In this document: piece after piece, positions 10,046 to 46,376 of the stretch
Layout: every line of letters starts with the position of its first letter
How positions within the stretch are numbered: position 1 is the stretch's first letter
Origin: Ornithinimicrobium sp. F0845
Lineage (GTDB): Bacteria; Actinomycetota; Actinomycetes; Actinomycetales; Dermatophilaceae
Assembly: GCF_023015765.1 (NCBI RefSeq)
Contig: NZ_JALKAL010000004.1
Span: forward strand, 1 to 64,000
DNA length: 64,000 bases
Direction: 5' to 3'
Notes under the pieces: model-generated
The model's database searches: none
The model's input: only the letters and a program-made list of their open reading frames with translations
Told to the model about the DNA's origin: nothing
Program-made: the position numbers and the translations under genes

Positions 10046-10069
10046 CGAGCGGATGGATGCTGCCTTCGC

Positions 10070-10147
10070 GCTCACCCGGCGCCCCCACCCGGCGCCCTCA
10101 CCCGGCGCCCTCACCCACACCCCCACCCGGCGCCCTCACCCAGCACC
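10070..10147. repeat. 13-bp tandem repeat, about six degenerate copies
   Basis: Copies of approximately TCACCCGGCGCCC follow head to tail just 3' of the caspase-like gene and end directly against the palindrome at 10148. The fourth copy is altered to CACCCACACCCC. The region is non-coding in all frames by composition. Confidence 0.7.
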
Positions 10148-10223
10148 GTGACGCCTAACCTGCGATGTCGTGACCTTCTCGACGGATATCGCCCTGCGGG
10201 CCACATCGCAGGTTTGGCGTCAC
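10148..10223. repeat. Long imperfect palindrome between convergent genes
   Basis: The 21-nt arms at 10148-10168 and 10203-10223 pair with one mismatch around a 34-nt loop. The inner part of the arm is AACCTGCGATGT, matching ATCGCAGGTT on the other side. It sits between the 3' ends of the caspase-like and DUF559 genes, so it could act as a bidirectional terminator. A related palindrome occurs at 11297-11360, which suggests a dispersed repeat family. Confidence 0.75.
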
Positions 10224-26251: not shown

Positions 26252-28585
26252 ATGTCACCGGTGCAGATCATCGCCCTCGTCGTCGGACTAGGCGTCACGC
26301 TCGTCGCCGTCTCGCTCTTCGTGCGCACCATCGCCGGCTTCGTCGCCAAGTTCCGCCTCGGGCAGCCCGCCGCGAACCGCACCGACGACCCGCTGGCCCG
26401 CACGGTCACGCTCGTCCGCGAGTTCCTCGGCCACACCCGGATGGCCCGCAAACCGGCGGTGGCGATCGCGCACTGGTTCGTGATGCTCGGCTTCCTGCTG
26501 CTCACCACGACCCTCGCCACGGCCTACGGCCAGCTGTTCGACCCGCACTTCGCACTGCCGCTGATCGGGCACTTCCCGCCCTACATCTGGCTGGCCGAGT
26601 TGTTCGGCTGGGGCACCCTGATCGGGATCGTGCTGCTGATCGTGCTGCGCCAGCGGCTCCACCCGCGCAGTCTGGAGCGCCGCAGCCGGTTCTGGGGGTC
26701 CACCTTCTGGCAGGCGTATGTCGTGGAGTTCGTGATCCTCGGCGTCGGCCTCTGCATCGTGCTGCTCCGCGGCCTGGAGTTCGCCCTCGGCAAGGTCACC
26801 GGAGCGGAGTGGGCCGACTTCGCCCACTTCCCCACGACCGGCTGGATCGGCTCCTTCTTCGACGGGATGTCCGAGGACGCCCTGGAGACCACGATCATCG
26901 TGGTCGCGCTGATCAAGATCCTCATCTCGATGGGCTGGATGATCACCATCGCGCTGACCCCGACGATGGGCGTGGCCTGGCACCGCTTCCTGGCCTTCGT
27001 CAACATCTGGTTCAAGCGTCACGCCGACGGCCGCACCTCCCTGGGTGAGCTGCAGCCGATCATGGTCGACGGCGCGCCGCTGGACTTCGAGAACATCGAG
27101 GAGCTCGACGAGGACGCGGCGCTCGGCGTCGGCAAGATCGAGGACTTCACCTGGAAGGGACTGCTCGACTTCTCCACCTGCACCGAGTGCGGCCGCTGCC
27201 AGGAGCAGTGCCCGGCGTGGAACACCGACAAGCCGCTGTCTCCCAAGATGCTGGTGATGAACCTGCGCAACCACCACCACGCCAAGGCGCCCTGGCTGAT
27301 GGCCAGCGAGGAGGCCCGCGCCACCATGGCGAACGGGACCGGAGCAACCGACGAGCAGGCAGGTCCGGTGAGTGGCGGCATACTCCTGTCGCCGGCGGCG
27401 GAGGCGCAGCGTGAGCTGGTCGGGGCGACCGAGGGCGACCCCACCATCCCCTCCGGCGGCGCCGTCATCGACCCCGACGTGATCTGGTCGTGCACCACCT
27501 GCGGCGCCTGTGTCGAGCAGTGCCCGGTCGACATCGAGCACGTCGACACGATCGTGGACCTGCGCCGCTACCAGACGCTCATCGAGTCGGCCTTCCCGAG
27601 CGAGCTGGGCGGTCTGTTCAAGAACCTGGAGAACAAGCAGAACCCGTGGGGCATGTCGGCCCGCGCCCGGATGGACTGGGCCAAAGACCTGCCGTTCGAG
27701 GTCAAGATGGCCGGCGCCGACGTCGAGGACCTGGACGAGGTCGACTACCTGTTCTGGGTCGGCTGCGCCGGAGCGTACGAGGACCGCGCCAAGAAGACCA
27801 CCCGTGCCGTGGCCGAGCTGCTCCACACCGCGGGCGTGAGCTTCGCGGTGCTGGGCGACGGCGAGACCTGCACCGGGGACCCCGCGCGGCGGGCCGGCAA
27901 CGAGTTCCTCTACCAGATGCTGGCGCAGCAGAACGTCGAGGTGCTCAACGAGGTCAACGCCACCAAGATCGTGGTGACCTGCGCGCACTGCTTCAACACC
28001 ATCAAGAACGAGTACCCCCAGCTCGGCGGCAAGTACCAGGTCGTCCACCACACCCAGCTGCTGAACCGGCTGGTGCGGGAGAAGAAGCTGACCCCGGTGG
28101 CCCGCCCGGAGCAGGCCGACACCTCGGGCGTGGCCTCGACGGCGGACTCGGTGACCTATCACGACCCCTGCTACCTGGGTCGTCACAACGGCGTCTACGC
28201 CCCGCCGCGCGAGCTGCTCGGCGCACTGCCGGGTGTCGAGGTGCGGGAGATGCCGCGCTCCGGCGAGAAGTCCTTCTGCTGCGGCGCCGGCGGTGCCCGC
28301 ATGTGGATGGAGGAGAAGCTCGGCACGCGCATCAACGTCAACCGCACTGAGGAGGCGCTGGCCACCGGCGCCGACCGGATCGCGATCGGTTGCCCGTTCT
28401 GCCGGGTGATGCTCTCCGACGGGCTGACCCAGAAGCAGTCCGAGGGTGCCCGCGAAGAGGTCGAGGTCGTCGACGTCGCGCAGATGCTGCTGGCTGCGGT
28501 GCGTCGCGGCCAGGACGGTCAGGACGCGCCTGTTGAGGAAGCGCCGGAGCCGACGCCCGACCCGGAACCTGCGCCGACCGCCTGA
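26252..28585 (+). CDS. Membrane-bound (Fe-S)-binding oxidoreductase, HdrD/GlpC-like
   Basis: A 777-residue protein. The N-terminal ~260 residues have about five membrane helices resembling a NarI/HdrE-type cytochrome b domain. Next come two ferredoxin clusters, CTECGRCQEQCP and CTTCGACVEQCPVD (~310-425), then two CCG domains: GCAGAYEDRAKK, VTCAHCFNTIKNEYP, then HDPCYLGRHNG and SFCCGAGGARMW. This order is that of actinobacterial HdrD/GlpC-like quinone-linked oxidoreductases. It should pass electrons between a soluble donor and the menaquinone pool; the substrate is unknown. The acidic Pro-rich tail is disordered. Just downstream is hairpin array 1. Confidence 0.92.
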   Translation: MSPVQIIALVVGLGVTLVAVSLFVRTIAGFVAKFRLGQPAANRTDDPLARTVTLVREFLGHTRMARKPAVAIAHWFVMLGFLLLTTTLATAYGQLFDPHFALPLIGHFPPYIWLAELFGWGTLIGIVLLIVLRQRLHPRSLERRSRFWGSTFWQAYVVEFVILGVGLCIVLLRGLEFALGKVTGAEWADFAHFPTTGWIGSFFDGMSEDALETTIIVVALIKILISMGWMITIALTPTMGVAWHRFLAFVNIWFKRHADGRTSLGELQPIMVDGAPLDFENIEELDEDAALGVGKIEDFTWKGLLDFSTCTECGRCQEQCPAWNTDKPLSPKMLVMNLRNHHHAKAPWLMASEEARATMANGTGATDEQAGPVSGGILLSPAAEAQRELVGATEGDPTIPSGGAVIDPDVIWSCTTCGACVEQCPVDIEHVDTIVDLRRYQTLIESAFPSELGGLFKNLENKQNPWGMSARARMDWAKDLPFEVKMAGADVEDLDEVDYLFWVGCAGAYEDRAKKTTRAVAELLHTAGVSFAVLGDGETCTGDPARRAGNEFLYQMLAQQNVEVLNEVNATKIVVTCAHCFNTIKNEYPQLGGKYQVVHHTQLLNRLVREKKLTPVARPEQADTSGVASTADSVTYHDPCYLGRHNGVYAPPRELLGALPGVEVREMPRSGEKSFCCGAGGARMWMEEKLGTRINVNRTEEALATGADRIAIGCPFCRVMLSDGLTQKQSEGAREEVEVVDVAQMLLAAVRRGQDGQDAPVEEAPEPTPDPEPAPTA

Positions 28586-28614
28586 CGCGGCGGCCGACCC
28601 CACGGGTCCCTGCC

Positions 28615-28832
28615 GGGGACGTGACATCGGTGCGTCCTGCGCACCACCAGAAACTCCGGTGCACACGGTGCACCAGCAGAAACTCCGGTGCACAGCGCGC
28701 ACCAACGCAACTCCGGTGCACACGGTGCACCAGCCGAAACTCTGGGGCACACGGTGCACCACCAGAAACTCCGGTGCACAGGGCGCACCACCAGAAACTC
28801 CGGTGCGCAGAGTGCACCGATGTCACGTCCCC
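28615..28832. repeat. Tandem mini-hairpin array 1 with terminal inverted repeat
   Basis: Outer ends GGGGACGTGACATCGGTGC (28615-28633) and its exact complement (28814-28832) form a 19-bp inverted repeat. Between and including them are seven mini-hairpins, each GGTGC-7 nt-GCACC, separated by an 11-12 nt linker close to ACCAGAAACTCC, so the period is about 29 bp. The fifth stem is imperfect (GGGGC). It lies between the convergent Fe-S oxidoreductase and a minus-strand membrane gene. The period does not preserve a reading frame and no protein character is seen. The rest of 28586-28901 holds no gene. Confidence 0.9.
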
Positions 28833-28901
28833 CAGGGGTGCCCACACAGAGCGTGGAGGGCACGGCCTCAGCAGGCCGCACCCTCCACGCACTACGGACC
28901 G

Positions 28902-29558
28902 TCAGGGACGCTTGCCCTTGGCGATCCCGAAGATGCTGGCGACCACGACCACCAGGCCACCGGCGACGACGATGGGCAGGCCTGGGCCGAGTGACGCCAT
29001 ACTCTCGTCGGAGACCAGGGCGGAGATGTTGGACAGGTCGTAACCGCCGATCGCGGTAGCCACCAGCCCGAAGAAGGCGGCGACGCCGAACATCCACCGG
29101 CGGCCCTTGCCCAGGGCGGCCGGGAGCGCGACGAGCGCGACGATCACCGCGCAGAAGATGGTGAGTATGCCGTCACCGTCTGTCCCGTAGACCGACCCGG
29201 CGAACATCACGCTGGCCCAGGGAAGGACGGACCCGACGACGACGATCGCCGCGCCTGCGAGAGTGATCCACCCGGCGAGCCTGCGTGCCCTGGCACCCGT
29301 GTCGAGGGGCGGAGCGGTCACCTCGGCGAAGTGCTGCGGGGCCGGGTAGCTCGGTGGTGGCTGGGGCCAGGTCTGCCGGGAGGGGGTCTGCTGGGAGGGG
29401 CCCTGCGGGGTTGGGCCCTGCGGGGGTGGGCCCTGCGGGGGTGGGCCCTGCTGGGGCGCACCCTGCGGGGGTGGGCCGTAGCCGAGCTGGCCGGGCTGCT
29501 GCTGAGGTGCGGTCACGGGGGGCTGTCCCGCCTGGGGCGGGTGGTGCGGAGAAGTCAT
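28902..29558 (-). CDS. Pro/Gln-rich four-helix membrane protein
   Basis: A ~218-residue protein. The first ~85 residues are a disordered Pro/Gln/Gly tract with repeats of the type PQGP, then four membrane helices: LAGWITLAGAAIVVVGSVLP, ILTIFCAVIVALVALP, MFGVAAFFGLVATAIGG and LPIVVAGGLVVVVASIFGI. The architecture (Pro-rich cytoplasmic tail plus DUF-type four-helix domain) is common in Actinobacteria but has no assigned function. I start at the second Met (29558) as the first Met gives only three more residues. Convergent with the Fe-S oxidoreductase across repeat array 1. Confidence 0.7.
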   Translation of the reverse strand: MTSPHHPPQAGQPPVTAPQQQPGQLGYGPPPQGAPQQGPPPQGPPPQGPTPQGPSQQTPSRQTWPQPPPSYPAPQHFAEVTAPPLDTGARARRLAGWITLAGAAIVVVGSVLPWASVMFAGSVYGTDGDGILTIFCAVIVALVALPAALGKGRRWMFGVAAFFGLVATAIGGYDLSNISALVSDESMASLGPGLPIVVAGGLVVVVASIFGIAKGKRP

Positions 29559-37651: not shown

Positions 37652-37671
37652 CCGCCGCCCCCCTGCCCGGA

Positions 37672-37945
37672 GACGTGACATCGGTGCACGACACGCACCA
37701 GCCCTGAAGTGGTGCGGGAGATGCACCGCGCGCGAACCTGGTGCGCAGGATGCACCGCCCGCCGAACCTGGTGCGCAGGAGCACCGCCCGCCGAACCTGG
37801 TGCGCGGGATGCACCGCGTGCCGACGTGGTGCGCGGGATGCACCGCCCGCCGAACCTGGTGCGCCGCATGCACCGCCCCGCGAACCTGGTGCACGAGATG
37901 CACCAGTCGTGGGCTGGTGCACACGAGGCACCAATGTCACGTCTC
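37672..37945. repeat. Tandem mini-hairpin array 2 with the same terminal inverted repeat
   Basis: Ends GACGTGACATCGGTGC (37672-37687) and GCACCAATGTCACGTC (to 37943) match those of array 1 with one difference. They enclose nine mini-hairpins GGTGC-7 nt-GCACC (one loop has 6 nt) separated by 11-13 nt linkers close to GCCCGCCGAACCT, so the period is about 30 bp. The linker and loop sequences differ from array 1, but the stems are identical. Located in the space after the YczE-like gene and before the broken XRE gene; 37946-38101 shows no gene. Confidence 0.9.
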
Positions 37946-38101
37946 GGGAAGGGGCCCTGTCTGGCTCTCGTCGGAGGGGCTTCTGCGGGACCCGGGACAG
38001 GCGACGAGCCCTCGTCCACAGGCCGGCCGGGCTCCGCGAACCGATCCACAGCGGGCCCCTCACGCGAGACGCGGCGGCAGCCGATCCAGCACCATGCCCA
38101 G

Positions 38102-38643
38102 ATGAGTGACGAGCGGCAACCGACGCCCCCAAGCACCCCGCCGGTGCACGAGCAGGTGGGTCTGGCTCTGCGGGCTGATCGGCGCCACCTCCAGCAGAGC
38201 CAGCTGCCTATGCGGCCGGCCGCGAGATCAGTCGGGACATCCTGGCCCGGGCAGAGGTCGACGCCAGCAGGCTGCGGCTCGACACGATCACAGAGCTCCT
38301 CGACGGGACGGGACTCGAACTGGTTGTTCTCCCCGTGGGGTGGGCCGTCGGCGGCCCGTGGTGGGACTCGACCGACGTGGAGGCCCGCACGCGGGCGGGC
38401 GGCCGGTTCCCGGCTCACCGCGAGGTGAAGAAGAGTCCCTGGGGTCCCTATTGGTGGCACTATCACGAGGCCTACGGCACTCGCGGCAACGGGCCTCGTC
38501 CGCAGTGGACGGCGGAAGGCTTCACCCCGCCTCCGGGCACGAGATACGGCAAGAAGCCGACGCTCGGGGAGGACGGACGACCGCGATGGCCGTACAACAA
38601 CATGTACCCCGACAACCTGTACCCCGACGAAGGCGCCTCGTAA
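38102..38643 (+). pseudogene. XRE-type helix-turn-helix protein, frameshifted
   Basis: From ATG 38102 one frame gives VHEQVGLALRADRRHLQQSQ, the opening helix of an XRE-type domain, but past 38207 it loses coding character. A second frame, open from 38179, takes over with AYAAGREISRDILARAEVD, RLDTITELLDGTGLELVVLP and a Trp-rich tail (WGPYWWHYHEAYG, PYNNMYPDN) to 38643. A single-base indel near 38205 joins them into a ~180-residue protein whose N-terminal ~90 residues are a Cro/CI-like regulator. The Trp/Tyr-rich tail is of unknown role. May be real decay or an assembly error. Confidence 0.6.
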
Positions 38644-46264: not shown

Positions 46265-46376
46265 CGGCTCGCCCACGACTGGGCAAGAGTCGCGGCTCGC
46301 CCACGACTGGGCGAGAGTCGCGGCTCGCCCACGACTGGGCGAGAGTCGCACCGCTCGCCGACGACTGGGTGAGATC
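46265..46376. repeat. 28-bp tandem palindromic repeat, four copies
   Basis: Three near-identical units of 28 bp (46265-46292, 46293-46320, 46321-46348) and one degenerate unit. Each contains the perfect hairpin CTCGCCCA-CGAC-TGGGCGAG followed by AGTCG; unit 1 has one change (GCAAG). It lies between the stop of the 1401-residue protein gene (46375) and the arsR operator. Confidence 0.9.

Follow-up and report, generated by a model that had tools for sequence, protein, structure and literature searches.

What is an array of small hairpins, closed at both ends by a perfect inverted repeat, doing between two convergent genes? The array lies in a 64,000-nucleotide stretch of Ornithinimicrobium sp. 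F0845 (the window). An earlier note on it had suggested a terminator, an insulating cruciform, a protein-binding array or a non-autonomous mobile element. We find that two of these four suggestions hold up, the protein-binding array and, in part, non-autonomous mobility.

A dispersed family of palindromic arrays

Element 1 (28615-28832, no strand assigned) is a palindromic array of seven units and is 218 bp long. The perfect 19-bp terminal inverted repeat that had been noticed is there, formed by the left arm GGGGACGTGACATCGGTGC (28615-28633, plus strand) and its perfect inverted copy, the right arm (28814-28832, minus strand). The units are 17 nt each and start at 28629, 28658, 28687, 28715, 28744, 28773 and 28802. 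They had been described as seven hairpins with identical stems; the number is right, but the stem is GGTGC-N7-GCACC in only six of them, the fifth (28744) having GGGGC/GCACC. The site does lie between convergent genes, as had been stated: the upstream gene, for a CCG / 4Fe-4S protein of 777 aa (26252-28585, plus strand), ends at 28585, and a simple gene finder places a minus-strand ORF at 28902-29516. The RNA fold z-score of element 1 is -8.7, which is what a palindrome would give.

A conventional hairpin adjoins element 1 at 28851-28890 (17-bp arms with one mismatch, 6-nt loop) and is likely the bidirectional terminator of the convergent gene pair. Other repeats in the window are a 15-nt tandem repeat at 29358-29477, encoding the Pro/Gln/Gly-rich N-terminus of the minus-strand ORF, a 28-bp unit in three tandem copies at 46265-46349, and a tandem repeat of about 13 nt at 10069-10152.

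The earlier note had proposed a search of the same genome and had held that the lack of any second copy would count against the array. Genome-wide, allowing up to two mismatches in the arms, we found 14 paired elements and one lone arm, two of the elements being in the window, and because of this number we reject the reading of element 1 as a one-locus oddity. The family consists of arms GGRGACGTGACAYYGGTGC enclosing one to nine GGTG-N9/10-CACC units with a spacing of about 29 or 30 bp, and the elements end with GGRGACGTGACA. Allowing up to one mismatch, the 16-nt arm has 12 matches in the window genome versus 0 for the reversed control, an abundance far above chance. From arm to arm the elements of the window genome (G000; other G numbers are related genomes) measure 39 bp for a single hairpin and otherwise about 39 plus multiples of 29. 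Paired elements of G010 and G019 measure 40, 70, 100, 130 or 160, because the inner unit there is 18 nt; one of 129 also occurs. Element 2 (37669-37945, no strand assigned) belongs to the same family, is an array of nine units and lies directly upstream of an HTH gene.

Among 186 family genomes, at least two exact arms occur only in G000, G008, G010, G014, G015, G019 and G023. Paired elements with imperfect arms are present in G001 and G006, G001 having one exact arm, and the G004 genome has two arms at one mismatch. In a listing of 18 genomes, four of the six G001 arms that start [CG]ACGTGACA, the HTH-linked one included, begin CACGTGACA, a start that is found once each in G014, G015 and G019. 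The exact arm-plus-hairpin pattern, searched over a genome collection that may omit the window's own genome, gave seven stretches, five of them from the genus; the other two are singletons that lack a second arm.

An RNA family was rejected, as Rfam gave 11 matches up to E 5 for positions 28000-29500 of the window and none at the gathering score. The element has no match in plasmids; 35 viral stretches carry single arms, with one weak pairing among them (373 bp, 3 mismatches). Neither phages nor plasmids gave a match to the HTH protein, and a phage or plasmid origin was rejected on these results. The literature text available to our search gives no description of the element family or of an association between an HTH gene and such a palindrome.

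Arm pairing was assessed over 51 distinct elements. The paired region spans positions -3 to +15 of the arm, and further out pairing is about that expected by chance. At the three variable arm positions the observed and expected pairing are 0.59/0.48, 0.75/0.62 and 0.59/0.49 (p 0.15, 0.02 and 0.09), so that any covariation of the arms is weak. Compensatory pairing is absent from the inner units, which do not exceed the expectation from independent columns, and this leaves little support for the suggestion that the hairpins rearrange as RNA or DNA. Position 5 of the 18-nt units even anti-pairs (CA 26, TG 15, CG 11, TA 2; p 8e-5), and the inner units are thus most readily understood as DNA motifs that are asymmetric. 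As these 18-nt units occur in both orientations, the idea that they act as strand-specific RNA was dropped. At seven shared loci the divergence per site is 0.03-0.12 in the arms and 0.25-0.88 in the 4+4 bases that adjoin them on the inside, the arm figures being biased toward conservation by the arm-based detection of elements; fourfold sites of one flanking gene differ by 0.33-0.50. The arms thus change slowly.

A linked HTH gene and the inner half-site

The gene behind element 2 (38102-38643, plus strand, start and stop chosen by eye) encodes an XRE-type HTH protein, the presumed cognate of the element. In the window its match falls into two parts that are read in different frames, 38099-38206 and 38203-38607, and we call it frameshifted in the assembly because of this change of frame at 38203-38206. 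Its reading frame is uninterrupted in G001, G008, G010, G014, G015 and G019. Comparison of the flanks shows element 2 to be common to six genomes, always just upstream of the small HTH protein gene. The distance from the element to the start is 116-140 nt in five intact genes and about 158 nt in G000, and in G014 the pair of element and gene has different neighbours from those in the other genomes. The pairing is found in seven related genomes, with altered arms in two of them. In G001 and G004 the element is also upstream of the HTH gene, the left inner half-site of G004 being changed to GGTTC.

A profile search for the HTH protein matched 91 of the 186 family genomes at E 0.001 or better, weak HTH-only matches included. 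The protein has R-D at the helix start in seven of the 31 genus genomes (G000, G001, G008, G010, G014, G015, G019). At least two exact arms are present in six of these seven genomes versus one of the 24 others, G023 (p about 6e-5), a count from which decayed elements in other genomes may have escaped. G023, a MAG, has elements and no detected HTH gene, and G006 has two imperfect GGTG-type elements without an R-D type gene.

Matches of the protein in Pfam, NCBIfam, PHROGs and PADLOC are weak or confined to the HTH half, and for the C-terminal half these databases gave nothing convincing. A structure model from 26 sequences has a mean pLDDT of 84.6, with the helices in residues 2-56 forming the HTH and a separate C-terminal half (an earlier model from 5 sequences was poor). 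The 50 Foldseek matches listed are mostly HTH proteins, HipB and controller proteins first, the best at E 0.03. The best sequence match with a solved structure is HigA (2.5e-7, over the HTH).

From the matches of the profile search we read a selection of 50 loci of the HTH family, of which 49 were kept after the exclusion of G179 at a contig edge. Palindromes of like build and other spelling are found, such as GACGTCACACTGAGTC (G018), GACGGGTGTCTGAGTC (G006), ACGGGTGGCTGCCCC (G013) and CGTGAGATTGCTTCC (G017), and upstream of the gene in another genus GTGTCTTTGCTCC (G120, G124). An inverted-repeat score of at least 12 within 330 nt upstream was obtained for 35 of the 49 genes versus 24 of 347 control regions drawn from the genus only (p about 3e-23). 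Without the eight GGTG-type genes it is 29 of 41 against the same 24 of 347 (p about 6e-20); a first version of the test, with unequal region lengths, gave 32 of 49 and 24 of 348. The remaining 14 of the 49 genes have no strong palindrome in the 330 nt. As the palindrome lies just upstream of most family genes examined, autoregulation by the HTH protein is suggested.

A further motif, TCCACAG, stands twice between element 2 and the HTH gene, at 38015-38021 and 38045-38051 (both plus strand). It occurs on the forward strand within 200 nt of the start in 39 of the 49 family genes versus 8 of 373 controls. The pattern TT[GA]TCCACA, with at most one mismatch, was found forward in 33 and reverse in one of the 49 genes, versus 11 and 4 of the 373 controls; we take it to resemble a DnaA box.

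The first residue of the recognition helix corresponds to the inner half-site, R with GGTG (GGT in a table of 26 genes, whose classes were assigned by eye), Q with GAGTC, K with GCCC and P with GCTYC. In this table the residue has a normalised mutual information of 1.00 with the half-site class and is the sole column to do so among those with at most five gaps, the next column reaching 0.61. The alignment omits G000, G091, G123 and G079 from the 49 genes, and 26 of the remaining 45 were used; G015 was classed by its inner units, as the motif is not spelled out in its outermost arm. G013 is an informative case, with an outer arm like those of G006 and G008b, yet K and GCCC where those have Q and GAGTC. 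The outer arm itself correlates with protein columns at 0.79 at best, which was set aside because it follows relatedness.

An automated motif count over the 49 genes made 25 unique calls, of which 23 agree with the residue (R 9/9, P 4/4, K 6/8, Q 4/4). None of 200000 permutations reached 23, a figure that is only indicative because the genes are related, which makes it overstate independence (G167 and G172, for example), and because the motif classes were defined after looking. The two disagreements are K-type genes, G010c and G019b, called as other motifs. The rest comprises one tie (a Q gene), one unpredicted call (A) and 22 genes without a motif. Six genes outside the hand table (G000, G039, G016, G167, G172 and G178) all agree.

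Spread of a palindrome from its gene would predict dispersed copies of the other spellings as well, and this expectation was then sampled. For the Q-type spelling, 399 kb of G008 (mostly the contig of the Q-type gene) contain two elements besides the HTH-linked one and 400 kb of G006 contain one, while the reversed control gave 0 pairs at the same 3-mismatch setting. The G012 spelling has no dispersed copy in the 400 kb around its HTH gene and is found only at that gene, so spread is not universal. An orphan Q-type palindrome, GACGGGTG, was first noticed by chance in G010 (L162:353-391), and upstream of the G010 HTH paralogue in L262 no Q-type palindrome was seen.

Placement, insertion-like copies and competing explanations

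The elements lie mostly 3' of genes. The 44 elements without a link to the HTH gene comprise 17 between convergent and 18 between codirectional genes, 7 in a predicted ORF, 1 between divergent genes and 1 at an edge; among 136 background gaps, 17 are convergent, 71 codirectional and 48 divergent. Convergent gaps therefore hold 17 of the 36 intergenic elements versus 17 of 136 in the background and divergent gaps 1 of 36 versus 48 of 136, where each orthologous copy is counted separately and the gene calls are those of a simple finder that uses codon usage and was trained on the window. Downstream of the 777-aa gene an element is found in G000, G010 and G023, at 32, 6 and 106 nt from the stop; the remaining 27 of the 30 loci, whose sequence reaches at most 1.5 kb, gave no element.

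A single-hairpin copy lies in frame within a class I/II aminotransferase gene of G000; G015 has a copy at this site too, accompanied by further inserted sequence. The orthologues of G006, G008 and G010 have a clean empty site and no element. At the C-terminus of an ECF S component the element occupies one exact position in G006, G008 and G019, with two, four and five units; it is further along in G000 and G010 and absent there in G023. The five-unit element of G019 (L102:3511-3670) is in frame and would encode a repeated decapeptide (SRPTGAPGDT-like). The neighbouring ECF-type ATPase of G000 has a single GGTG-type palindrome in the linker between its two ABC domains. In G010, G019 and G023 this linker carries a second palindromic or tandem family, around GGCGACCGAGCGC (L224:727-813, L228:2356, L229:2468), and it appears to be a hot spot for different repeats. 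Compared by eye, the second family does not match the HTH-linked palindrome of G010 and G019.

The dispersed copies and the clean empty site agree with the suggested non-autonomous mobile element; other signs of mobility were not obtained. The Y1/RAYT transposase (PF01797) was found in 0 of 31 genus genomes, with control matches in 5 of 14. For 50 elements the longest direct repeat at the boundaries is 0 to 4 nt, the same as in a mixed-flank control. No longer element with the same arms, such as an autonomous transposon would be, is among the arm matches listed.

The repeat family, the HTH-gene linkage, the specificity correlation, the slow change of the arms, the placement bias and the empty site were all shown computationally. 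We propose that the element is probably an operator array of the HTH protein, copied elsewhere in some genomes by an insertion-like process. The protein would be a small two-domain protein, with an N-terminal XRE/Cro-type HTH and the C-terminal half, and the array would be its binding sites. It very likely binds the element, the HTH reading the inner half-site, and the rest of the protein may read the arm GACGTGACA. As would be expected of an operator, the putative site stands upstream of the regulator gene and the presumed specificity residue tracks its sequence. The earlier suggestion of a protein-binding array is well supported by the sequence evidence, i.e. the linked HTH gene and the match of residue to half-site.

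Insertion-like spread is likely as well. In some genomes further copies of the palindrome would have arisen elsewhere, most of them behind genes and some in frame within a gene, and these would then have grown by tandem duplication of the 29-30 bp unit; the copying activity is presumed and its agent putative. At gene 3' ends the bound element might block or insulate transcription, a preferred guess that we still consider less likely than not, or the bound sites may simply titrate the protein.

One competing explanation is a purely selfish MITE- or REP-like palindrome that is moved in trans by a transposase and has the HTH gene merely as one neighbour. The dispersed copies, the sharp boundaries and the in-frame insertion, for which G006, G008 and G010 have empty sites, favour it, as do the REP-like placement and the BOX-like tandem inner units, variable in number at one locus. 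We regard it as unlikely because the Y1/RAYT transposase is absent in all 31 genomes, 50 elements lack target duplication above control, and the matches listed include no longer element with these arms. The slow change of the arms, and the recurrence of the HTH linkage and the half-site code in other spellings and other genera, also argue against it. A bidirectional terminator or a 3'-end mRNA stabiliser, acting as an RNA hairpin, seems quite improbable. A hairpin has no need of sequence-specific arms, some copies lie within open reading frames, a conventional hairpin already stands beside element 1 (28851-28890), and the inner units pair only as expected and anti-pair at position 5. This is to be set against the strong fold, the excess between convergent genes, the scarcity between divergent ones, the minus-strand matches that resemble terminators (3 versus 0.3 expected) and the weak excess of pairing at the variable arm positions.

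A further alternative is an ordinary regulon, with the HTH protein acting as a conventional repressor at dispersed sites that are simply its normal operators. In its favour, the XRE fold is akin to those of HipB, HigA and C-proteins and the upstream site suggests autoregulation. However, the sites are mostly 3' of genes, some are in coding sequence and almost none lie between divergent promoters. A discrete insertion at one gene and the multiplication of units in tandem are not what such a regulon would give, and G004 and G012 have the HTH gene and few or no other sites (for G012 in the 400 kb sampled). We therefore doubt this explanation as well.

Tentatively, and with the balance somewhat against it, we suggest an undescribed class of element, in which genes of an HTH family have a private palindromic array, protein specificity and palindrome change together, and the palindrome has on more than one occasion left its gene and spread through the genome in a REP- or BOX-like manner. 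If so, this would be a partnership of repeat and binding protein without a transposase. The array would serve 3'-end insulation or chromosome organisation, or would be selfish, an operator that gains copies by titration of its own repressor. The DnaA-box-like motifs between array and gene would tie the element to replication. Palindromic repeats interspersed in genomes are common; apart from the RAYT case, little is known, to our knowledge, of the proteins that partner them or of why they persist. Here a presumed partner protein was picked out by computation, and the one-residue specificity correspondence found with it led on to a second dispersed family of repeats. With binding confirmed, this would be a tractable system for studying how operators multiply within genomes and what effect a bound array has when it lies behind a gene.

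Comparison with known systems

According to the accessible text of PMC3733652, REPs and REPINs are small palindromes found mostly 3' of genes or between convergent genes, some of them in frame in genes, and the gene of their dedicated partner protein, RAYT (TnpA-REP), is flanked by a copy. The elements described here share this placement and a presumed partner gene with an adjoining copy. They differ in having neither a Y1 transposase (31 genus genomes) nor a GTAG tag, and the absent transposase rules out identity with REPIN/RAYT. The presumed partner is instead a DNA-binding protein of XRE type in which no nuclease domain is recognised, and here a residue of the partner and the repeat sequence co-vary. 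The same text reports CGTC-tagged REPs without a dedicated transposase, some of them in genes, including RPE-4 and RPE-6 of Rickettsia. Our palindromes likewise end in CGTC, but have arms of 16-19 bp, loops of 7-8 nt and tandem inner units, where CGTC-REPs are given stems of 8-9 bp and loops of 4-5 nt (PMC3733652).

In build, the elements are like BOX of Streptococcus pneumoniae (boxA-boxB(n)-boxC), in which two conserved ends enclose tandem inner modules of varying number and which can overlap the 3' ends of genes, as far as the available text of PMC3049150 goes. The ends of our elements are, unlike those of BOX, inverted copies of each other, and the inner unit repeats the half-site of the end. 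An HTH gene is linked to them, whereas that text names no such partner for BOX (PMC3049150). With MITEs they share terminal inverted repeats and empty sites in relatives, but not a target-site duplication.

XRE antitoxins and controller proteins, such as HipB, HigA and C-proteins, have palindromic operators upstream of their own genes. The protein described here has the same HTH fold, judging from sequence and fold matches. It differs in its additional conserved C-terminal half, in its many dispersed sites behind genes and in the neighbours of its gene, which vary between loci. Set apart from REP/RAYT elements and MITEs by the features that define those, the element resembles REPs in its placement, BOX in its modular build and XRE operators in its logic.
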